Source: Bacteroidota bacterium
GTDB lineage: Bacteria; Bacteroidota; Bacteroidia; Chitinophagales; Chitinophagaceae
Assembly (NCBI GenBank): GCA_013288285.1
Contig: JABDCE010000031.1
Coordinates: 1-33,017 of the forward strand
Length of the DNA: 33,017 nucleotides
Reading direction: 5' to 3'
Positions within the stretch are counted from its first letter, which is position 1, and each line of letters opens with the position of its first letter. Positions 4,459-30,999 of this stretch are shown piece after piece. The position numbers and the translations under genes are program-made. The notes under the pieces were generated by a model, which ran no database searches, was not told where the DNA came from, and was given only the letters and a program-made list of their open reading frames with translations.

Positions 4459-4583
4459 TAAAAATGTTTATAAATAGTTGACAATTTAAGTACATTATCT
4501 AAGAACGTTTTCTTACCAAGGATATCTGTAAGTTAGTCGGGCAGTTTTCTTCTTTATCAAAACCTCTTAAACAACTGGCCAAG

Positions 4584-5939
4584 CTAGTGTGCCTTTGCGC
4601 TGCTTTTGAATATGCCGGGGTATAATACACCATCAGGTGCGGTAAAATCAAGATTGAGTAATTGTGCTATGATTGGGGCTATATCTTCAAGTCCCATTTG
4701 TGGTATTACCATGCCCTTATTAAAGGCGGGGCCATAACCTATGAAGCCGGTCTGTATCTCTTTAAAGTCGGGGTAGTAGCCGTGTGTGCCGCCATGCGCA
4801 GCTTTTAGTTCATCGCCGTCTATGGCGCTGCTCATATTTATGCCTTGTATGGGCGTGAGCGCCAGTGCCACATCGGGGTCTGCGCCCCTTGCCTGTAGCT
4901 CAACTCCCTTTACTACCCGAAACAATTTTTTGGTAGCCGGGGGAAGGCCGGCGAGTATTGCTTCTACCTGCTCCAGTGTTTTTTTGTCGTCTTTGTCTTT
5001 CAAGTGCAGAAATGCCGCAGCACCTGATGTGTGGAATATGGCTTTGTATTCCGTTTTCCCGTTGATCTTTGATACCAGCCCCTTGGCAGCCAGCCAAACG
5101 TTGGGCGATAGCGTAGTATGGATATCTACAAAGCCGTGGTCGCCGGTGATAATGATGGCTGTGCTGTCTTTAATGCCGGCCATCTGCACGGCTTCGAGTA
5201 TTTTGCCAATGGCATTATCGGCATTTGCTACCGCTCTTTTTACCATCGCTCCCTGTCGGCCTTCGGCATGTTCATAATGGTCTACACAGACGAGGTGTAT
5301 AGCCAGGAGGTTTGGCTTGTAGGTGCGCAGGATGTAGGAGGCCATGCGGGCTATGTTCTCGTCCTTGGTCAGATAATTTTCATTGAGGGCGTCTGCTGTT
5401 ATTTTGCCGGTGGCGTTTTGTTCAATCTCTTCAAACAGGCCCTTGGGTGTGGTGTTATCGCGTATGGGGGATATTTTGTCTGCCTTACTGTCGAGCGGCC
5501 ATATTTCGGGGACATTATAATCGATGGGAGCGCCCACAGATACCGGCCATGACACTGCTGCTGACCTGAGGCCTGCTTTATGCACTGCATCCCACAGCGT
5601 AGGTGTTTTTATGGCGCTGGTATACCAGTACCATCTTCCTTGCAGGCCGGCGAGGTCGAAAAGTTCGTTGTAATAGATGCCATGCTTTGATGGCAGGGCC
5701 CCTGTGACCATAGTAGTATGTGAGGGATAGGTGACAGACGGGAATACACTGGTGACGCCATCGGCATAAACGCCGGCATCCTTCATCTGGTGCAGCACAG
5801 GTGTACCCCATGCATCGTCTTTATAGAAGTCGGGCCGTGAACCATCAATACTAATGAGTATGACATACTTGGTGGATTGCGCCATGCAGGCAATATGTAA
5901 CAGGCACACGGCAAATAAAAGAAGTAGCGTTTTGTACAT
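4584..5939 (-). CDS. Secreted nucleotide pyrophosphatase/phosphodiesterase (NPP) of the alkaline phosphatase superfamily
   Basis: With ATG 5939 the product is 451 aa with a signal peptide ending near residue 21 (CMAQ); the frame could extend seven codons to a TTG at 5960. It carries the NPP metal-site set: D32 (ISIDGSRPD), the Thr nucleophile T70 in FPSVTYPSH, D220 and H224 (VCVDHYEHAEG), D267-H268 (ITGDHGFVD) and H386 (GGTHGYYP). These bind two Zn ions. The family hydrolyses phosphodiester or pyrophosphate bonds of nucleotides or choline phosphodiesters; the Thr nucleophile marks NPP-type rather than Ser alkaline phosphatases. It is expected in the periplasm or outside the cell. It diverges from the lipoprotein gene at 6120, with which it shares a 180-bp spacer. 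Confidence 0.88.
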   Translation of the reverse strand: MYKTLLLLFAVCLLHIACMAQSTKYVILISIDGSRPDFYKDDAWGTPVLHQMKDAGVYADGVTSVFPSVTYPSHTTMVTGALPSKHGIYYNELFDLAGLQGRWYWYTSAIKTPTLWDAVHKAGLRSAAVSWPVSVGAPIDYNVPEIWPLDSKADKISPIRDNTTPKGLFEEIEQNATGKITADALNENYLTKDENIARMASYILRTYKPNLLAIHLVCVDHYEHAEGRQGAMVKRAVANADNAIGKILEAVQMAGIKDSTAIIITGDHGFVDIHTTLSPNVWLAAKGLVSKINGKTEYKAIFHTSGAAAFLHLKDKDDKKTLEQVEAILAGLPPATKKLFRVVKGVELQARGADPDVALALTPIQGINMSSAIDGDELKAAHGGTHGYYPDFKEIQTGFIGYGPAFNKGMVIPQMGLEDIAPIIAQLLNLDFTAPDGVLYPGIFKSSAKAH

Positions 5940-6064
5940 GAGCAGAGATTGTTTCTCCAAACTTATTGATGCAGTATTGCTTTAGTGTTGCGGCGGTGTT
6001 GTGTTTTTGTAATGTTTTTAGGGGGTAAAATCCGGAATAATTGTCTATACATATGTGCTAAGAC

Positions 6065-6086
6065 TTGTTTCTGCAATCAGAAACAA
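6065..6086. repeat. Perfect 9-bp inverted repeat between divergent genes
   Basis: TTGTTTCTG (6065-6073) and CAGAAACAA (6078-6086) flank CAAT. The element lies in the spacer between the divergent NPP and retropepsin-like genes, 33 bases before the lipoprotein ATG. It has no T tract on either strand, which favours a dimeric regulator site over a terminator. Binding protein unknown. Confidence 0.45.
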
Positions 6087-6119
6087 ATATCTTGTCCATC
6101 ACACACTAATAAATTAAGG

Positions 6120-7334
6120 ATGAAATTCATTCAAACAACAGCACTTGCCTTGCTACTAGGCCTTACTTCGGGCTGCAGCACGCTGAAAACACTTAAATAC
6201 ATAAAGGGTGGGAGCCTGTACCCGGCTGCTTTTAAGACAGAAGTGGCTTTTGAAATGCGCTTGGGGCTTATAGTGCTCAAAGTGAAAATACATGGGAAGG
6301 AGCATAGCTTTATACTTGATTCCGGCGCGCCCGATGCGATATCAAAGGAACTGGCGGCGGAACTGGGCATAAAAAATGCGGGCAATGGAAAACTCAAAGA
6401 TTCGCAGGGAAACAGCAGCAGCCTGGGGTTTGCGGCGGTAGACAGTATGGATTTTGGCGGCCTGCTATTTCTTAATGTTGGCACTGCGATCGTAGATCTG
6501 CCACCATCGAACGACATAACTTGTTTTAACGTGGATGGGATCATAGGCGCCAACCTGATGCGCAAGGCTATATGGGAGATAGATTATGAGCGGCATATCA
6601 TTACCATAACCAGCAGCCTTGATTCGCTCACGGTTCCCGCCAATGCACAAACAGTTAAGTTTCACACAGACCTTGTGGGCGTACCAATGATAGACGTGCA
6701 ACTGAACGGGGTAACTGAACACAATGTGATTGCTGACCTGGGCTCTAACCACGATTTCAACTGCTCGATGGCGACATATAAAAAGCTGGAGGAAAATGGC
6801 CTTCATACCAATACCTATGAATATGGCGCGGGCTCTTCCGGAGCGTTTGGCAGAGGCAAGGATGACACAACCTGGTATACGGTTGTTTCTTCCATTGGGT
6901 TGGGCAATCTGAAACTCACTGATCAGGTAGTGGATTTCAGTGAAAAGGCCTCAAAAACTATTGGCACCAATTTCTTTAAACATTACCGACTCATATTCGA
7001 CTGGTCGGCGCATGAGTTAACGATGATACCGGTAAGTACGTATGACAACACGAGCAAAAAGTCATACAGCTTTTCGCTCGAGCTGAGGGACAACAAAGTC
7101 TTTATTAGTTCGGTGCGAACTAAGATAGGTGTAGCTGCCACAGGCCCGCAACTGGGCGACCAGGTATTGGAGATAGATAGGGTGGACTACCGTACCTGCA
7201 GCCATGATAGTTGGTGTGGGCTGCTCAGCCGGCGTTTTTATGATACAGCCACCAGTGCCTCTATACTGGTGAAGCGCGGAGATAAGGAATTGAAGTACGA
7301 GGTGGAGAAGGAGGCGATGGTTAGCGGGAAGTGA
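6120..7334 (+). CDS. Lipoprotein with duplicated retropepsin-like aspartyl protease fold and PDZ domain
   Basis: I start at ATG 6120 rather than 5985 because it gives a lipoprotein signal peptide with cleavage before C19 (LTSGC). The 404-aa product has two pepsin-like halves. The first motif is D67-S-G (FILDSGAPDAIS) with the flap/psi-loop GIIGANLM near 140. The second is D206-L-G-S (VIADLGSNHDF), where DTG/DSG would be usual. A PDZ-like module follows at about 320-365 (DNKVFISSV, then GPQLGDQVLEIDRVDYR). Bacteroidota encode many aspartyl-protease/PDZ proteins of this layout. It would sit on the periplasmic side of a membrane. The Leu in the second motif may reduce or alter activity; whether it cleaves anything is unknown. 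Confidence 0.8.
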   Translation: MKFIQTTALALLLGLTSGCSTLKTLKYIKGGSLYPAAFKTEVAFEMRLGLIVLKVKIHGKEHSFILDSGAPDAISKELAAELGIKNAGNGKLKDSQGNSSSLGFAAVDSMDFGGLLFLNVGTAIVDLPPSNDITCFNVDGIIGANLMRKAIWEIDYERHIITITSSLDSLTVPANAQTVKFHTDLVGVPMIDVQLNGVTEHNVIADLGSNHDFNCSMATYKKLEENGLHTNTYEYGAGSSGAFGRGKDDTTWYTVVSSIGLGNLKLTDQVVDFSEKASKTIGTNFFKHYRLIFDWSAHELTMIPVSTYDNTSKKSYSFSLELRDNKVFISSVRTKIGVAATGPQLGDQVLEIDRVDYRTCSHDSWCGLLSRRFYDTATSASILVKRGDKELKYEVEKEAMVSGK

Positions 7335-7441
7335 GGCGACAACTTGCAAAGGATATATCTGCACATTTAAGGATCAGGCAATATTTTCAGTAGGTTTTTC
7401 TGTGATAGATGTTTTTTCGAAAAATGTGGCAACTTTGCAAT

Positions 7442-7651
7442 ATGAAAGCAGCAAATATTCTTATAGCACATCCGGCTAACAGCAATAAACTAAATGCTTT
7501 AATGGCTGTGATGAAGGCGCTGGACATAAAATACGAAGTGTCACCATACGATCCTCAATACGTTGACATGATTCTACAGGGAGATAAGGATAGAAAAGAG
7601 GGCAAGGGAAAGAAAATTTCAAAGGATGAGTTAGATGCGCTACGGAAATAA
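7442..7651 (+). CDS. Small DUF2683-like protein (antitoxin-like), no toxin partner
   Basis: With ATG 7442 the protein has 69 residues (MKAANILIAHP...). It shows the order of small Bacteroidota DUF2683-type proteins: a strand, a KLNALMAVMKALDIKYEV helix-strand, YDPQYVDMI, then a Lys-rich tail (KGKKISKDELDAL). These resemble antitoxins in size and layout, but no toxin gene lies beside it: both neighbours are unrelated and downstream is a hairpin and a reverse-strand gene. An 11-codon N-terminal extension from ATG 7409 is possible but adds nothing family-like. A CAACTTTG -7-like box ends only six bases before the ATG, so a very short leader is possible. Confidence 0.6.
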   Translation: MKAANILIAHPANSNKLNALMAVMKALDIKYEVSPYDPQYVDMILQGDKDRKEGKGKKISKDELDALRK

Positions 7652-7662
7652 TTCTCCTTCCT

Positions 7663-7701
7663 ATTGCTCAAGAGAATTTGCCTTATTGGCAAAGAAGCAA
7701 T
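7663..7701 (+). other. Nested hairpin downstream of the small DUF2683-like gene
   Basis: An outer stem ATTGCT/AGCAAT (7663-7668 and 7696-7701) encloses an inner stem TTTGCC/GGCAAA (7677-7682 and 7688-7693) with a five-base loop. There is no clear T tract after it, so it may protect the mRNA 3' end rather than terminate. The remaining bases up to 7824 show nothing I can name. Confidence 0.3.
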
Positions 7702-7824
7702 AATAAGATAGTTTTGAAACGAATTGCATCCTTATAAAGGCAATAGCCGAAGATCCATACCGTGCTAGTAAAATCGTAAAAAAAACAAACGAATACCACG
7801 TTGAGCAGAATAGAATCAAATCTC

Positions 7825-8556
7825 TTATTCGTCTCTCAACTGTTTGCGCATCCTGTAGTAGACAAGGCGCAGATTGTCAAAGATAAGAGCGGTGATCAGT
7901 ATCAAGGTTGCTACAATAAGTGTTTTGAATTGTATAGCCAGGTACAAAAAGCCTCCTGCCACACAGCCCGAAAAGAAAAAGACAATGATGCTTCCATGTA
8001 ATCCTATATTCCGGATCAATCGCTGACGTTGATTTTTTTCCTTGTAGAAAAACAGTTGGGATAGCTCGATGCCGAGATCAGTAAACAAACCGGTTAAATG
8101 CGTAGTGCGAACAGCAGAATTTGAAACTTTACTTACTAAAGAGTTTTGCAGCCCCATCGCAAACAATAGCACACAGGCAAGCAGTGGCTTACTAATGCCT
8201 GCATCTACAAATCGGTCGCCGCATACGCCCATGGTCAGCAACAGCAGTATTTCCAGCAGCATTGCCGCAGTATGTGGGGCTTTCCGTTCTTTAATTATAT
8301 AGTATTCCGTCAGCAGGCTCGACAGGAACGAACCGGACAGGAAAGCTAGTATGTAAAATAGAAAGTGAACACCAAATAATTCATTCTTCTTCAACACCCC
8401 CTCGGCAAAATAAGCGAAGTGCCCTGTGACGTTGGTGGTAAGTACGCCAAGAGCGAGAACACCGCAAATATTGACTATCCCGGCTATAAAAGATAAGAAT
8501 GCCGCTAACCTGAAATTGTGATTGAAGGTGCGCGCCTTGCCCTTGTGTCTGAACAT
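7825..8556 (-). CDS. YoaK/DUF1275-family integral membrane protein
   Basis: The 243-aa product has about six hydrophobic segments. The N-terminal region is characteristic of DUF1275: LAAFLSFIAGIVNICG followed by LTTNVTGHFAYFAEG. Further on is GLQNSLVSKVSNSAVRTTHLTGLFTDLG, where the family has its conserved N-T-T-x-x-TG region (quoted here in parts: LQNSLVSK and RTTHLTG). The family is widespread in bacteria; its transport substrate or role is not established. It is monocistronic, with the ATG at 8556 immediately followed by a basic N-terminus. Family assignment is firm, function is open. Confidence 0.85.
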   Translation of the reverse strand: MFRHKGKARTFNHNFRLAAFLSFIAGIVNICGVLALGVLTTNVTGHFAYFAEGVLKKNELFGVHFLFYILAFLSGSFLSSLLTEYYIIKERKAPHTAAMLLEILLLLTMGVCGDRFVDAGISKPLLACVLLFAMGLQNSLVSKVSNSAVRTTHLTGLFTDLGIELSQLFFYKEKNQRQRLIRNIGLHGSIIVFFFSGCVAGGFLYLAIQFKTLIVATLILITALIFDNLRLVYYRMRKQLRDE

Positions 8557-24439: not shown

Positions 24440-24513
24440 GGCTGCGTAGCTCAACTGAATAGAGCATCTCACTACGGATGAGAAGGTTTCAGGTTTGAAT
24501 CCTGACGCGGTCA
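24440..24513 (+). tRNA. tRNA-Arg (anticodon ACG)
   Basis: The 74 bases fold into a cloverleaf. The acceptor stem is GGCTGCG/CGCGGTC (with two G-U pairs) and the discriminator is A73. The D stem is GCTC/GAGC, the anticodon stem TCTCA/TGAGA with loop CTACGGA, the variable loop AGGTT, and the T stem TCAGG/CCTGA with loop TTTGAAT. The anticodon ACG at the middle of the loop reads CGN Arg codons, with A34 expected to become inosine. The 3' CCA is not encoded. It has its own promoter and terminator. tRNA genes are frequent island insertion sites, and the accessory region begins directly after this one. Confidence 0.95.
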
Positions 24514-24519
24514 CTAAAA

Positions 24520-24588: not shown

Positions 24589-24807
24589 GTGTTACGGCCG
24601 TTCTCTTTATGTTACAATAGAGCGATTCCTTTCAAAATGCTCCTGAAACATGAAGGCATCATTTACCCTCGGAACTCAATTACAGAGCGGATTCCAAGGG
24701 GGCGTACCTTATTCAAAACGGTGCTCACAATAGAAGAAGAAAATCAAGAACTTGCTGAACTCCGTGATTGGTTGTTGCATATATTAACAAATGGGCAGTT
24801 AAGATGA
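24589..24807 (+). pseudogene. Remnant of a type I restriction specificity subunit (hsdS) C-terminus
   Basis: An open frame of 72 codons from GTG 24589 ends with ENQELAELRDWLLHILTNGQ (about 24739-24798), then LR and a stop. This is the characteristic last helix of HsdS proteins (usual form: EN/QNQxLxxLRDWLLPMLMNGQV). A full HsdS has about 400 residues with two target-recognition domains; only this tail is recognisable. The upstream 50 codons do not resemble an HsdS domain, so the frame was probably joined by deletion. No hsdM or hsdR is present. It marks a former restriction-modification locus next to the tRNA gene. Confidence 0.7.
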
Positions 24808-25147
24808 CTAACCTGTAAAATATATTATCATTTAGTATTCAGTTCAGAATCAATACTATACTATACTATCATTAGGAATTCAAATGAAAGTATCAAAAGC
24901 AAGAGAAATATTAGCTAAACATAGTAACCGATGAACCAATAAGTTATATTTGAACTCCGATGCTGGACGTCCTATTATGTTGTTAGTAAAGTCTCAAGAG
25001 TAATGGCACACCTTAATTCCGAGATTGATTATTATCAATGCTGGTGAAGGGGTTAGTGAAGATAAACGGAGAAAGAGTAGTAAAAATATATGATAGCGGC
25101 TGAGCCAGAATGGGGCATGAGAGAAATAAAAGACAAATTACAAATCC
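24808..25147 (+). other. Decayed non-coding stretch before the ATPase gene
   Basis: These 340 bases hold no intact gene. Short in-frame pieces look like broken coding sequence. From ATG 24884, MKVSKAREILAKHSNR meets TGA at 24932 and the frame then continues TNKLYLNSDAGRPIMLLVKS to a TAA. From 25038, MLVKGLVKINGERVVKIYDSG ends at a TGA, and from 25090 a 24-codon ORF runs into the ATPase start. None is recognisable. ACTAT is repeated about three times at 24854-24870. I see no clear promoter for the ATPase gene. Confidence 0.45.
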
Positions 25148-27883
25148 ATGAAAAAACTAGATAGTTGGCATAGTATATATCGTCACATTGCAGAGCTACT
25201 AAACGAGTTCTATTTGACATACCAGTCAAAGTCTTCTGCTGAGTTATACAAGAAATTAGCAAATTCAGATTTTGGTAATAGCAATTCTCGTTTATTCAAT
25301 TTTGATCTTTATGATTCTCATAAAGGATTAGATCCAATACAGGTTTTTTGTACGTTTAATTACTCTAGAATTTCTAATGAGAGCCGAGTGAAAAACCTTA
25401 GGCTTTTGCTATCCGCTTTAGAGTCAAAAGCTGAGATGAGTTTAGGTATTGATTTTACTGGTATTCCTGCTCCAATAATTACACGTGTTATTCAATTTAG
25501 AGGTGTCAATTTTCAGAATGAAATCTGGGTTGAGTTTAACAAGGTTTTCGAAAAGGGTGTAACAGGGATAAACCAAAAAACATTTAATTCTATTCGGACC
25601 TGGAAAGGTATTGATACACCATCTTTTACAATGTTTCTTTTTTGGGTCGATTCTGAGCAGTTCCTGCCATTAGACCAAAAAACTATAACGTTTCTTAAGT
25701 TATATGGCTTAATTCCCGCTCGCCCTAGTTCATATGACGAATACAAAACCTGCTTGCAGAAAATAAAAACGTTCGGTTATAAGTCAATCAATAGTGAAAG
25801 TGCAATAAGATTAATTGTTAGTGACGCTTACAATTTTTCGGATAAATCCTATCTAGGCCCAATCATTAGTGGCACTACCGCATCTATAATTGCTGAAGGT
25901 CGTACCGAAGAGGCTATATTAGAACAAATCCAACAGCAAGCAGCAAAAAACCGAAAAGAACTTTTCAAGAACTTTGAAATCATTGCGATTCGGCCGAAGC
26001 ACAAACAAGGAAATTCTACCAAAGGAGGTAAACAAAGACACTTAAAGAATCTGATTACTGGGCAGCTCTATCAATTTTACGCCTCTTATGTTTTTAGCGA
26101 TAATGATGATGCAACTATCGAATACAATAATGCCAAAGAGGTAGACATCTTCGGCATAAACGGGCTAAATGTTTCAATAAGTGCAATTGTTGGAAAGAAC
26201 GGGTCCGGTAAAAGCACCCTTATCGAATTATTTTACCTAATAGTAAATAAGATTGCGTATGTAAAAGAAATGAAAGCCGGATTAAAACTCATCAATGAAG
26301 AAGTATTTGCCGATCTTTTCTTTAAGTCTGATAAAGTATATAAAGTTTCAGTTGGTAATACGATTCAACTATTTGAATATAAGTTTGACGACGAGTTAAA
26401 GTTATATAAGCAAGTTACAAAAGACCATGAAAGCGAAAAGACGTTTCATGATTTCGATATCGAAAGCTTTTGTTATTCGCTTGTAATAAATTACTCACTC
26501 TACGGACTTAATGCTAAGATAATAGGAGATTGGATCAATCCGCTCTTTCATAAAAACGACAGCTATCAAGTTCCAATTGTGTTAAATCCTAAAAGAGACA
26601 ATGGGGTAGTAGACGTTAATATCGAAGATGGACTGGCAAAATCCAGATTGCTCTCAAATCTCTTGGAGCCAGACCTGATTGATTTTGATAAGAAAATAGT
26701 TCCAGAGTTGGTTCCAGGAGCTGTCCCCTGCAAACTTGAATTCATACTTGATGACGAAAAAATTAGAAGGAAGCGAAATATCTACGAAAAGTTCAATGAC
26801 AAGAAGATTTCTAAACGTGACATCAATAAGGTTATAAAATACTACGACCTGAAAATCTTAGACTCTGTTGAATTCGTTGATGAAGCTAAGGAATACATCT
26901 ACCTAAAAACGATTACAATAGCGCACAGCTATCCAAAGTTTAAACCATACAAAGCTGTTGCCAGTCGATTAGATGAAGAAGAAAAGCTGTCCAAATATGT
27001 AGGCTTACTCAAGATAGAAAGAAGCCACATCACCTTTAAACTCCGGCAAGCAATCAATTACTTACAATTTGGACTATATCAAACTGAGGGAGATAACTCA
27101 GTGTTGTCACTTTCAGCAAAAATAGAAAAACTTAAAATTGGCAACACTTCGGAGGAAGAAATAAGGACAATTGATCTGACACCGCCTTCGTTTCTTAAAA
27201 CCAATGTGGTTTTTCAGCATGGAGGCGATTTCAATTCGCTTAGTTCAGGTGAAAAGCAGCAAGTTTTTTCAATAAATACGATTGTATATCACTTGTATAA
27301 TATTAAATCAGTAATGGTTTATCAAGGTATTTACAAATACAACTGTGTTAACGTCATTTTTGATGAAGTAGAGTTGTATTTCCATCCCGATATGCAGCGC
27401 ACCTACGTTAATAACCTACTTAAACGCATAGGAACTCTTGGATTAAATGTAGACAACGACATAAACAATATTAATATTATATTCGTAACGCACTCTCCAT
27501 TTATTTTATCTGATATACCTAAGTCAAATGTATTGCGACTAGAGGTAAGTGAAGAAGGATTATCCAATCCCGGCGTTCCCGAAAAAAACACATTTGCAGC
27601 AAACGTACATGAATTGCTTGCTGATAGCTTTTTTCTCTCCTCCTCAATTGGTGAATTTGCCAAGAACAAAATAAATGAAATAATTGCCTTTTACATCAAA
27701 GTCAAGAATGCGAGAAATACCAAAGAACTTTTGTCACTCAAAAAAGAGTATGAAAATTTAAAAGAGTTATATACCAAAATACTTGATAACATAGGCGAAG
27801 ACGTTATTCAAGGCTTGATGAAAAATCACATTGAGTTTATAGACGAAAAGCTGACAGAAGTTCACACTAAAATTGCACTTTGA
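25148..27883 (+). CDS. ABC/SMC-type AAA ATPase with long N-terminal extension, Septu PtuA-like
   Basis: The product has 911 residues. The ATPase core has Walker A GKNGSGKST at 349-357, the ABC signature LSSGEKQ at 698-704, Walker B VIFDE with D739-E740 (followed by VELYFHP) and the switch His at 782 (FVTHSPFIL). This is the set of overcoming-lysogenization/RecF-like ATPases used in PtuA, GajA and similar defence proteins. No TOPRIM domain follows; the tail (about 845-911) is helical. Residues 1-340 are an unrecognised extension containing SFTMFLFWVDSEQFLPLDQK and a later EGRTEEAILEQIQQQ helix. The DNA is strikingly AT-rich (17 G/C in bases 26341-26400). It is one base from the HNH gene, so the two form an operon. 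Septu-like defence is inferred. Confidence 0.85.
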   Translation: MKKLDSWHSIYRHIAELLNEFYLTYQSKSSAELYKKLANSDFGNSNSRLFNFDLYDSHKGLDPIQVFCTFNYSRISNESRVKNLRLLLSALESKAEMSLGIDFTGIPAPIITRVIQFRGVNFQNEIWVEFNKVFEKGVTGINQKTFNSIRTWKGIDTPSFTMFLFWVDSEQFLPLDQKTITFLKLYGLIPARPSSYDEYKTCLQKIKTFGYKSINSESAIRLIVSDAYNFSDKSYLGPIISGTTASIIAEGRTEEAILEQIQQQAAKNRKELFKNFEIIAIRPKHKQGNSTKGGKQRHLKNLITGQLYQFYASYVFSDNDDATIEYNNAKEVDIFGINGLNVSISAIVGKNGSGKSTLIELFYLIVNKIAYVKEMKAGLKLINEEVFADLFFKSDKVYKVSVGNTIQLFEYKFDDELKLYKQVTKDHESEKTFHDFDIESFCYSLVINYSLYGLNAKIIGDWINPLFHKNDSYQVPIVLNPKRDNGVVDVNIEDGLAKSRLLSNLLEPDLIDFDKKIVPELVPGAVPCKLEFILDDEKIRRKRNIYEKFNDKKISKRDINKVIKYYDLKILDSVEFVDEAKEYIYLKTITIAHSYPKFKPYKAVASRLDEEEKLSKYVGLLKIERSHITFKLRQAINYLQFGLYQTEGDNSVLSLSAKIEKLKIGNTSEEEIRTIDLTPPSFLKTNVVFQHGGDFNSLSSGEKQQVFSINTIVYHLYNIKSVMVYQGIYKYNCVNVIFDEVELYFHPDMQRTYVNNLLKRIGTLGLNVDNDINNINIIFVTHSPFILSDIPKSNVLRLEVSEEGLSNPGVPEKNTFAANVHELLADSFFLSSSIGEFAKNKINEIIAFYIKVKNARNTKELLSLKKEYENLKELYTKILDNIGEDVIQGLMKNHIEFIDEKLTEVHTKIAL

Positions 27884-27884
27884 G

Positions 27885-29015
27885 ATGAATAAAATAAACT
27901 ATCCTTCGATGCCCAAAGAAAAGGTAGACTTCGAAAATGAATACTACGACGCCCTTATCAAGACAAACGTTGCTAAAATTAATACTCATTTAAAAACGAT
28001 CCCTTACAAAGCAGCACCACTAAATTTTGAAACCTTGGTGAAGTTACCTTTACACGAATTAATATCGTTAATGCCAGCTATTGAGAAATATAGCGACAGC
28101 AAAAAAAGGTCTATAACAAAAAAAGGAAAAAAAGTAGTGGTTAACAAGTTTTTAGATTTATTTAACTATGAGGGAAATCAACAAAATATAGCAGGTTTTT
28201 TCATGGCTAAAACCGAGTTTAGAAGTTGCTGCTATTGTTCAATCGACTACATTAATGCTTTTGCTGATTTTCCGGACTATAAAGATGAGTTAGTATTTGT
28301 TGATACGGCTTCATCTAGTGAACTAGAGTTAATAGAAGGGATAGACAAGTCAATTGCAAAAAGTATAATAGCAGGAAGACGAAAAAAGGGTTATTCTGAT
28401 ATCAGTAAAATTCCGGCATCCAAAAAAATACAAGACAATATTAAAAAATCTATATATGAAGACTCCCATAATCATTTCACTTTAGATCATTTAATACCAC
28501 AAAATGCCGGAAAATTCTATTCGCTATGCTTATATAATCTCGTTCCATCTTGCTATGCCTGTAATTCAAAATTCAAAAAGAAGATAGAGTTCAAAATTGA
28601 TTCAGATTTGATTTACGTTAGTCCAACGACCGATAGTTATTCAGTTCGGGAGAATTTTGAATTTCAAATATTTTATTCGGTTAGTTTGGATAAGATTAAA
28701 AATGTCGCTGATTTTCGATTAACGAAAAAAATAACAAAGCACCACGGTCAAATGGAGAACTATTTAAGAATGTTCAAGATAATGGGCAGATACACTTATC
28801 ATAAAGATCAGATTCTAAAACTAATTGAAAATAAAGTCAACTATTCTGATTCTAAAATAAAAGAGCTTTCATCAGATACGGGTATCTCTCAAAGAGAATT
28901 AAGGAAGATGATTTTTGGAGAGGATTTATATAACTCAGAATTTGATCAACATCCTTTTGTTAAGTTCCGTCGGGATATTGCAAAGAACAACATAAACATT
29001 AAAGGCATTTTGTAA
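27885..29015 (+). CDS. HNH endonuclease with helix-hairpin-helix inserted in the HNH fold, PtuB-like
   Basis: Start ATG 27885 is one base after the ATPase stop; the product has 376 residues. Zinc-knuckle cysteines C115/C118 (SCCYCS) and C223/C226 (PSCYACNSKFKKK) frame the catalytic segment HFTLDHLIPQ (D201-H202) and N218, the beta-beta-alpha-metal HNH site. Between the first knuckle and D201 there are about 80 residues instead of the usual few tens. Residues 147-176 (ELIEGIDKSIAKSIIAG, then RRKKGYSDISKI) match a ComEA-type helix-hairpin-helix that grips DNA without sequence specificity. The C-terminal part (about 285-370) is helical. As partner of the ATPase it probably cuts DNA when released or activated. 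AT-rich like its partner. Confidence 0.85.
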   Translation: MNKINYPSMPKEKVDFENEYYDALIKTNVAKINTHLKTIPYKAAPLNFETLVKLPLHELISLMPAIEKYSDSKKRSITKKGKKVVVNKFLDLFNYEGNQQNIAGFFMAKTEFRSCCYCSIDYINAFADFPDYKDELVFVDTASSSELELIEGIDKSIAKSIIAGRRKKGYSDISKIPASKKIQDNIKKSIYEDSHNHFTLDHLIPQNAGKFYSLCLYNLVPSCYACNSKFKKKIEFKIDSDLIYVSPTTDSYSVRENFEFQIFYSVSLDKIKNVADFRLTKKITKHHGQMENYLRMFKIMGRYTYHKDQILKLIENKVNYSDSKIKELSSDTGISQRELRKMIFGEDLYNSEFDQHPFVKFRRDIAKNNINIKGIL

Positions 29016-29071: not shown

Positions 29072-29374
29072 TTATACTGGATATATCTGACGAAGTATAG
29101 CTCGTTGTTTTAACTCATGAACATTTTGGACGTTTGAAAAAGCACCAATCCGCCAGCGTGGTAACATAAAGAAGTAATAGGAAAGGGACAGAGTTATCTG
29201 GAATAGTACAATTAATAGAGTGCAAACTATATTCACCCAGATTATATCACCGGCTATCGGGTATAGGAAAACACAAACAAATAACGCACCTGTCCCAAAA
29301 AAAACAAGCAATGGAGTCCATAAGAATAACCATCTGCCTTTTCTTATAGCTGCATCAATTGTGATTGTTTGCAC
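29072..29374 (-). CDS. Two-TM membrane protein of unknown function
   Basis: The 100-aa product starts at GTG 29374 (MQTITIDAAIRKGRW) and has two hydrophobic helices (about 15-38 and 45-68) with a short loop. A basic, soluble C-terminal tail follows (LPRWRIGAFSNVQNVHELKQ). It is downstream of the SLOG-TM gene on the same strand with an 83-base gap, so it may belong to the same transcript. No family recognised. In this context a membrane component or accessory of the SLOG effector is possible, but a host gene is equally likely. Confidence 0.55.
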   Translation of the reverse strand: MQTITIDAAIRKGRWLFLWTPLLVFFGTGALFVCVFLYPIAGDIIWVNIVCTLLIVLFQITLSLSYYFFMLPRWRIGAFSNVQNVHELKQRAILRQIYPV

Positions 29375-29457: not shown

Positions 29458-30999
29458 CTACGTTGGCACCTCATTCTTATCGTGCATATACTTTTCCCAG
29501 TCCAGGTTTTCTACCAGCATATCCCGGTTTATGGAGTTGAGGAAGTCTTCAAGTTCTGCTTCCGTACGAATGCGTTTTAGTTTCTGCGCCTTACCGCTGA
29601 AGTAGGCCGACATGGCTGCCGACAGCGTAATGATCTTCTCCCACTCATATAGGTACTTCAGGGCTTCGCAGGCGGCAATGGTGGGCGGTATGAACAGCGA
29701 TACAAACAGGGTAGCCTCTTCAAATGCATGTGTGTCGAAAAAAGACGGCCAGAACGACGACAAATGAACCCCCAGGTGATGAAAAAACTCATTGGCATCT
29801 TTTACATAGTGCAGCATAATGCCCAGGGCCACCATCAGGAATAGAAGTGTCCGTATCTTCTTATATAGGTTATTCCTTTTCTTGAATTTTACTTCCTTGC
29901 GCTCGTGGTAGTGCTGCTGATTCAGTATCAGCTCCTTTTCCAGGTGTTCTTTCTTCTGTTCAAACGGCCAGTACGAGAAAGCGCTCAGGTTGATGAGCTT
30001 TATGGTATTGTCCAGTATCACGAACTCCGGTTTTGCTTTCAGCGAGAAGTAGATGGGGCTTACTGTTGTCTCGTATATGCGGTAGCCCAGCTCACAGAAG
30101 AAACGCTTTATTCGCAACCGTTCGCTGATGATCCGGTAGTGCACATATTTGCGGTGCAGGGCCTTTGAATTGCCAAATATCACCAGCGAGATGATGAACA
30201 TTAAGCAGAGGAACTCTACGGTAGCCAATATAAAGTTGAAAGGCAGTTCCGGCTTTAGCGTAGTGTTCAGCGAGAAGGCAAGTACTTCTATCAGGCCGGC
30301 CACAAACCCTATCGTCCATAGCTTGCGGTATTTGTTGTTGTATACCACAGCGTCATCATCAAACTCGTCCTGTTTCCTGATGATGAAAGATGCCAGGTGG
30401 TTGGTCTCTGGCGGGTAGACAACACCCTCTGCCTTGTAGCTTTCTTTATGGTCGTGGTGCAGGTAGTTGATGCGGGGATGCTCTTCTTCCGGGTTGATGA
30501 GCAGCAGGTTCTTTTTGTTTTTCATGGCATAGGTCACCGTGTCTTCGGTGCCGCCCTTGCCCTTCCCGTTCTTTTCGTTCCATATCGCTATCAGGTAGTC
30601 GGTGCTGTTCACCATTTCCACACCCAGCGCCAGGAACAGATCATTCGCTTCCTTTCCGTTAAGGGTATTCAGTTCGCGTCTATGCTCCTTGAGTACCTGG
30701 TTATATATCACCTCAAATTCACGTCGTTCCTTGTCCGATGAGAATCCCTCCAGGTATTTGCTACGTTCAAAAGGGAGCACTATTTCCAGCGGTATGCCCA
30801 CCTCTATGGCTACGCGTGCAAAAATGGTATCTGCCCCCTCTGCCAGTGGACTGATGGCTTTGAATTTTGTATCGGCATCCTGCTCCCGCTCTATGAATAT
30901 GATGTTCTCCAGCGCCCTTTTTATCACAGGTTTTATCTGTTCCGCCTGCTTTGGGCTGAGCATCCGGTGGCCTGTTATACCTATGGTTATTGTGTTCAT
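29458..30999 (-). CDS. SLOG-like sensor domain fused to transmembrane segments (putative membrane immune effector)
   Basis: The 513-aa product has an N-terminal Rossmann-like domain. It has GITGHR at 7-12, ISPLAEGADTIFARVAIEVG at 49-68, LPFERSKYLEGF at 75-86 and DYLIAIWNEKNGKGKGGTED at 134-153. These follow the SLOG superfamily pattern (LOG/DprA-related ligand-binding domains). TM pairs follow at about 227-245 and 253-276, and again at 383-399 and 427-446, with cytosolic helical parts between (290-380) and after. SLOG domains fused or linked to 2TM SLATT-type modules are predicted to sense nucleotide-derived signals and open membrane pores in anti-phage immunity (published computational prediction). 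Base composition is host-like (34 G/C in 29641-29700), unlike the ATPase/HNH pair. Confidence 0.7.
   Translation of the reverse strand: MNTITIGITGHRMLSPKQAEQIKPVIKRALENIIFIEREQDADTKFKAISPLAEGADTIFARVAIEVGIPLEIVLPFERSKYLEGFSSDKERREFEVIYNQVLKEHRRELNTLNGKEANDLFLALGVEMVNSTDYLIAIWNEKNGKGKGGTEDTVTYAMKNKKNLLLINPEEEHPRINYLHHDHKESYKAEGVVYPPETNHLASFIIRKQDEFDDDAVVYNNKYRKLWTIGFVAGLIEVLAFSLNTTLKPELPFNFILATVEFLCLMFIISLVIFGNSKALHRKYVHYRIISERLRIKRFFCELGYRIYETTVSPIYFSLKAKPEFVILDNTIKLINLSAFSYWPFEQKKEHLEKELILNQQHYHERKEVKFKKRNNLYKKIRTLLFLMVALGIMLHYVKDANEFFHHLGVHLSSFWPSFFDTHAFEEATLFVSLFIPPTIAACEALKYLYEWEKIITLSAAMSAYFSGKAQKLKRIRTEAELEDFLNSINRDMLVENLDWEKYMHDKNEVPT

Follow-up and report, generated by a model that had tools for sequence, protein, structure and literature searches.

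A Septu-related gene pair whose PtuA-like ATPase carries a McrB-like N-terminal domain

What does a gene pair do when its two products are related to the ATPase and the nuclease of the Septu defence system, but are both much larger than the examples of known structure? The question is raised by a locus of a Bacteroidota bacterium (Chitinophagaceae) on contig JABDCE010000031.1 of assembly GCA_013288285.1, whose 33,017 nucleotides are called here the window; the genome is 57.7% complete and consists of 128 contigs. A sequence-only reading of this DNA, made by a model, had described a cassette of an ABC/SMC-type ATPase gene and an HNH nuclease gene one base apart, proposing a Septu variant or a new defence system. 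In fact, the two open reading frames (ORFs) lie on the forward strand, like the other features given below unless noted, in the same direction and separated by a single base, at 25148-27883 (ATPase, PtuA-like/PDC-M62A, 911 amino acids) and 27885-29015 (nuclease, PtuB-like/PDC-M62B, 376 amino acids from the ATG at 27885, or 380 from an alternative earlier TTG start in the ORF list). On balance, we think that they probably form a PtuAB-type defence pair of the Septu family (PDC-M62), in which PtuA has gained a McrB-type N-terminal module that would read nucleic acids.

The ATPase motifs were found by alignment exactly where the sequence-only reading had placed them: the Walker A at residues 349-357 (G349-T357; 26192-26218), the ABC signature LSSGEKQ at residues 698-704 (27239-27259), the Walker B ending in D739-E740 (27350-27367) and the H-loop, H782. 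K355, S356, G701, E702, E740 and H782 were invariant in five aligned sequences, the window and four relatives. The best PADLOC profile of the ATPase was PDC-M62A (E 5.3e-40), matched over residues 313-889 and hence not at full length, residues 1-312 falling outside; the PtuA profile of PADLOC was matched with E 1.9e-16. When a profile of the ATPase core was compared with solved structures, PtuA ranked first (8ee4, E 1.3e-8). The NCBIfam PtuA model NF041760 gave 35 bits, below its cut-off of 500; since it represents the PtuA of retron Ec78, its score says more about retron I-A than about Septu.

The nuclease matched best, in PADLOC, the partner profile PDC-M62B (E 1.6e-30). It contains two zinc knuckles and D201-H202-N218, and C115, C118, D201, H202, N218, C223, C226 and N227 were invariant in 32 aligned sequences (the window and 31 others), including the catalytic-type D201-H202 of the HNH domain (28485-28490); in a wider alignment, the nuclease of locus L102 lacks the Cys at position 223. 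A Foldseek search with the whole nuclease model gave no match with E below 0.8, the top one by E-value being unrelated, and included two ComEA matches with prob 0.96-0.98; it was in a second look that the model was aligned with PtuB of Septu and of retron I-A. The DNA-binding module that had been noticed inside the nuclease is a ComEA-like helix-hairpin-helix (HhH) insert, located in a 79-residue stretch (28239-28475) that follows the first zinc knuckle and precedes the catalytic DH. Its match to Pfam HHH_3 (E 2.5e-4, 21.5 bits) is under the cut-off of 27, and the ComEA fold match of the nuclease model supports it. Thus, the pairing proposed from the letters alone holds for both proteins, and the gene pair is Septu kin, of the PDC-M62 branch.

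An extra N-terminal stretch of about 340 residues had also been claimed for the ATPase. The stretch exists, but it is shorter: about 275 residues precede the shared core, and, of these, residues 1-236 (25148-25855) are taken as the extra domain. This N-domain is carried by 27 of the 82 ATPases in the tree described below, the window included. Aligned by hhalign with six McrB-like N-domains, it scored 99.8% (E 4.6e-27, 230 columns), and W7, P63, P107, W127 and L164 are kept in all 27 fused proteins and in all ten other copies considered. Within the phylum, a sample of 394 other genomes gave matches in six with the N-terminal query and in seven with a profile of the 27 fused N-domains; of these seven profile matches, six correspond to long ORFs whose AAA parts are McrB-like, as read by eye, and the remaining one, L119, has a frame that stays open only up to the P-loop. 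Among named plasmids, the N-domain of L018, which is followed by EVE and AAA_5 domains (Pfam), retrieved 22 records, 17 of them from Deinococcus. They include a 'McrB family protein' adjoining McrC in D. radiodurans MP1, where the match starts upstream of the annotated start, an 'AAA family ATPase' adjoining mcrC in pR997, and an FRG-domain protein. The McrB-like N-module of the ATPase is one of several McrB N-modules and not a universal one. A Pfam scan of the 27 N-domains, with E up to 1, gave no family common to more than one member, and no copy was found in the phage and viral collections, which were searched partly by short exact patterns. In the FRG-domain protein, from a Parabacteroides distasonis plasmid (L120:5998-7479), a McrB-type N-domain is fused to an FRG domain (Pfam), and on a Deinococcus psychrotolerans plasmid (L195:4151-5908) a related N-domain region was seen in a hypothetical protein that matches AAA weakly and whose neighbours are annotated as BREX ATP-binding-domain proteins. 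A description of this fusion of a PtuA-like protein with the N-domain was not found in the literature searched, which left most subscription papers outside its coverage.

A first alternative is that we are looking at a plain PDC-M62/Septu pair, which has a structural add-on, for oligomerisation or autoinhibition, in its N-domain and shares trigger and target with other PtuAB pairs. Septu kinship, in fact, follows from the core and the nuclease alone, and the domain is missing from 55 of the 82 tree rows, although full-length matches were favoured in compiling them. On the other hand, McrB-like ATPases and an FRG protein also carry the domain, in part with mcrC or an EVE domain next to it, and the five residues listed above are constant across fused and other copies. 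Its presence on several hosts with constant residues fits an independent functional module, and we consider a mere structural role rather unlikely.

The AlphaFold model of the N-domain (pLDDT 91) may indicate the kind of module. Compared with the PDB, the 50 matches listed contained, as the only class, DNA glycosylases of the HhH-GPD type, with low TM-scores. The model has a predicted HhH at residues 143-167 (25574-25648, by DSSP), followed by Asp176 (25673-25675) just ahead of the next helix, a position that we take, by analogy, to be like that of the catalytic Asp of HhH-GPD enzymes. Position 176 is D in 26 and E in one of the 27 fused proteins; in ten McrB/FRG proteins it is D in six and N in four. 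The sequence profiles give no confirmation of this fold: against the PDB, those of the N-domain returned proteasome and designed-protein noise at E of 0.59 or more, or nothing, and hhalign with Nth, MutY, AlkA and pooled HhH-GPD profiles, made from 16 sequences in all from related genomes, gave 0.2% or less. Among viral models, the best Foldseek match had E 0.18, and a viral DNA glycosylase came third (E 0.43). A glycosylase-like fold is suggested by the model. The word 'glycosylase' does not occur in the main text of a 2024 McrBC census (PMC11090510).

Could the N-domain be an active base-excision enzyme, which produces abasic sites in modified phage DNA that PtuAB then cuts? The predicted fold and the acidic residue kept before the post-HhH helix would agree with this. 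By contrast, residue 158, the most plausible counterpart, in an uncertain register, of the lysine found in bifunctional glycosylases, is Lys in only one of the 27 fused proteins (in the McrB/FRG copies, residue 159 is Lys in seven of ten), and the Asn that replaces Asp176 in four of those ten copies also argues against catalysis. In favour, nicked DNA has been reported as a target of Septu PtuAB (PMC11555353), and other glycosylases are reported to protect against T-even phages (PMC11078745); against it, Brig1 and Brig3 belong to the uracil-glycosylase superfamily and not to this fold. We regard active base excision as quite improbable.

To place the fusion within its family, ATPase relatives were collected from species genomes and the best 80 of 311 were kept, a choice that biases the proportions among rows because it favours full-length matches. 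The tree was built on the ATPase core only and has 82 rows: these 80, the window and the viral-contig locus L110. Locus L111 (partial, 397 amino acids) was left out, and L065, with its nuclease cut at the contig end, was kept; the ATPase family was seen at two loci in viral contigs. The closest named relative of the window ATPase among the best 80, from a Flavipsychrobacter metagenome-assembled genome (MAG), is 63% identical. On the free tree the N-domain requires two changes, and a tree with all 27 fused rows as one clade has the higher likelihood (p-AU 0.996); a single origin of the N-domain is therefore likely, on an unrooted tree that cannot separate gain from loss. The HhH insert of the nuclease is present in only 15 of 75 nucleases, with eight changes on the same tree. 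By record title, the fused members are from Bacteroidota except one, L038:1799-4876, in a MAG labelled Sulfurimonas, which may reflect transfer or mis-binning. A nuclease gene adjoins the ATPase gene in 26 of the 27 fused cases, L034 ending 23 bases past the ATPase, and, where phmmer detected a nuclease (74 loci), its gene follows the ATPase gene in the same orientation at 68; in the other six (L058, L059, L076, L077, L081 and L085) it is upstream, in reverse order. At L089, two PDC-M62A-like ATPase genes in tandem (4678-6507 and 6541-8535) precede a single HNH gene.

The genomic setting of the pair was largely as first described. The two genes are AT-rich (33.8% GC, compared with 45.4% in the window outside the accessory stretch) and lie beside a tRNA-Arg(acg) gene (24440-24514), at which the synteny shared with six loci of the same genus comes to an end. 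In these, homology to the window extends from tilS (four loci) or rlmH (two) to the tRNA and ends there or at most 36 bases past it; two of the contigs terminate inside the tRNA, and a third 245 bases past the match. Because homology stops at or just past the tRNA, we place the pair in accessory DNA, and in those loci that extend past the tRNA the DNA holding the pair has no counterpart. The differing content 3' of the tRNA suggests a hotspot; no attachment-type direct repeats were found at the tRNA between 24300 and 31200. The hsdS remnant noticed near the tRNA is real: a 57-residue peptide (24634-24804), from the 3' end of a gene for a type I restriction specificity subunit, matches HsdS C-termini with a best E of 1.3e-7 over residues 15-57, whereas the best of 20 shuffles gave 0.87. 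The recognisable hsdS in the window is limited to at most 57 codons of the gene end, and some of the matching HsdS genes in other genomes sit directly upstream of the same cassette. Between the remnant and the ATPase gene, at 24884-25000, short peptide fragments resemble, by eye, the remains of a small antitoxin-like gene. On the other side of the pair, ORFs 29075-29374 and 29461-30999, both on the reverse strand, had no Pfam match at 0.01 and no PADLOC match at 0.001; the larger one looks, by eye, like a SLOG-type nucleotide-binding domain with membrane helices after it, so that a second defence unit may be present in the accessory stretch.

The remnant also raises the possibility that the pair guards type I restriction, staying inactive as long as the Hsd complex is whole and firing the nuclease once phage proteins disable it; PrrC and RloC act as guards of this kind beside hsd genes. 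Type I restriction (hsd) genes, searched by phmmer with seeds from the fused loci at E 1e-8, were found in 22 of the 82 rows and in none of 13 control stretches, each 12 kb long and taken from a total of seven genomes (p 0.035), and eight of the 22 rows have an upstream same-strand hsdR-hsdM-hsdS run. In PADLOC scans, type I methyltransferase and specificity models top the list for 189 flanking ORFs of 26 fused loci; in the controls (108 of 109 ORFs scanned, one dropped for length), the 25 of 48 families listed include no type I model and contain PD-Lambda-5, MTase_II and mad3. Moreover, the best NCBIfam match of the ATPase is TIGR04435, 'restriction system-associated AAA family ATPase' (7.7e-14), although its 51 bits are far below the cut-off of 300. 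Against a guard, 60 of the 82 rows have no hsd gene in the stretch examined at the threshold used, and the window keeps a mere piece of hsdS, yet the frames and motifs of the pair are intact. The association is, moreover, the same with the N-domain (7 of 27) or without it (15 of 55; Fisher p 1.0), and a link between the N-domain and type I restriction was rejected on these counts. All considered, we judge the guard reading unlikely. At L035, a pAgo gene (4463-5983; PADLOC pAgo_I, 1.2e-194) lies immediately upstream of the fused ATPase.

ABC/SMC-type ATPases and HhH motifs are frequent in DNA repair, and the pair might be asked to be a housekeeping ATPase and nuclease with no part in defence. 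Nevertheless, its distribution is patchy: of 395 genomes of the phylum, 8 have nuclease relatives, and this number includes the genome of the window; the pair follows a tRNA gene, in DNA unmatched in those same-genus loci that extend beyond this tRNA; and restriction and pAgo genes are found near some relatives. A housekeeping role appears to us scarcely credible.

We return, then, to a PtuAB-type defence pair with an acquired McrB-type module. Its N-domain would recognise something in the invading DNA, most probably a base that is modified or otherwise flipped out, because the other hosts of the domain are mainly type IV restriction proteins, one of them beside an EVE domain. The PtuA-like core might pass the signal on, through ATP-dependent closure and oligomerisation, to the HNH partner, which, held on DNA by its HhH insert, would cut DNA and might protect against phages. 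A more daring version, which we offer as a doubtful but attractive possibility, is that a glycosylase-fold domain on PtuA finds, and perhaps removes, modified phage bases and licenses the HNH cut there. If true, a single machine would combine Septu with glycosylase defence and with type IV restriction, and such a step of base excision or flipping would provide some of the PtuAB pairs with a defined trigger. A table of a 2025 mini-review gives the mechanism of PtuAB nuclease activation as 'Unclear' (PMC12198126); a McrB-type module on a PtuA-like clade means that the trigger there may be a DNA mark. The domain itself is defence-associated, has no Pfam family found, and is shared by McrB-like, PtuA-like and FRG proteins.

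Among known systems, the PADLOC candidate system PDC-M62 is the nearest, since both proteins match best there and the genes are adjacent as in the window; the best match of its A profile begins after the N-domain, though a full-length ATPase match is not known to be required for PDC-M62, and the HhH insert belongs to a minority of that family. With type I Septu and the PtuAB of retron I-A, the pair has in common a PtuA-type core and a PtuB-type HNH, but, as the sequence-only reading had suspected, the sizes do not fit: 911 residues compared with 456-552 in PtuA-type structure chains, and 376 with 206-234 in PtuB-type ones, the window pair having two additional modules. Septu Ec-B88 requires for defence the Walker A/B of PtuA and the HNH residues of PtuB (PMC13096335), motif types also present here; Septu PtuAB forms a 6:2 complex (PMC12948488); and PtuAB pairs cut DNA or deplete tRNA-Tyr, according to the pair (PMC11555353). 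The HhH-GPD glycosylases (Ogg, MutY, endonuclease III) are the best fold matches of the model and share with it the order HhH, loop, Asp, helix, but show low TM-scores and no detectable sequence-profile relation to the N-domain. Compared with ComEA-type HhH, the window copy sits, instead, within an HNH domain. Finally, McrB of the type IV system McrBC has an N-terminal domain homologous to residues 1-236 of the ATPase, but there the motor is an AAA+ GTPase and the partner McrC, whereas in the window the motor is of the ABC/PtuA type and the partner is an HNH nuclease.

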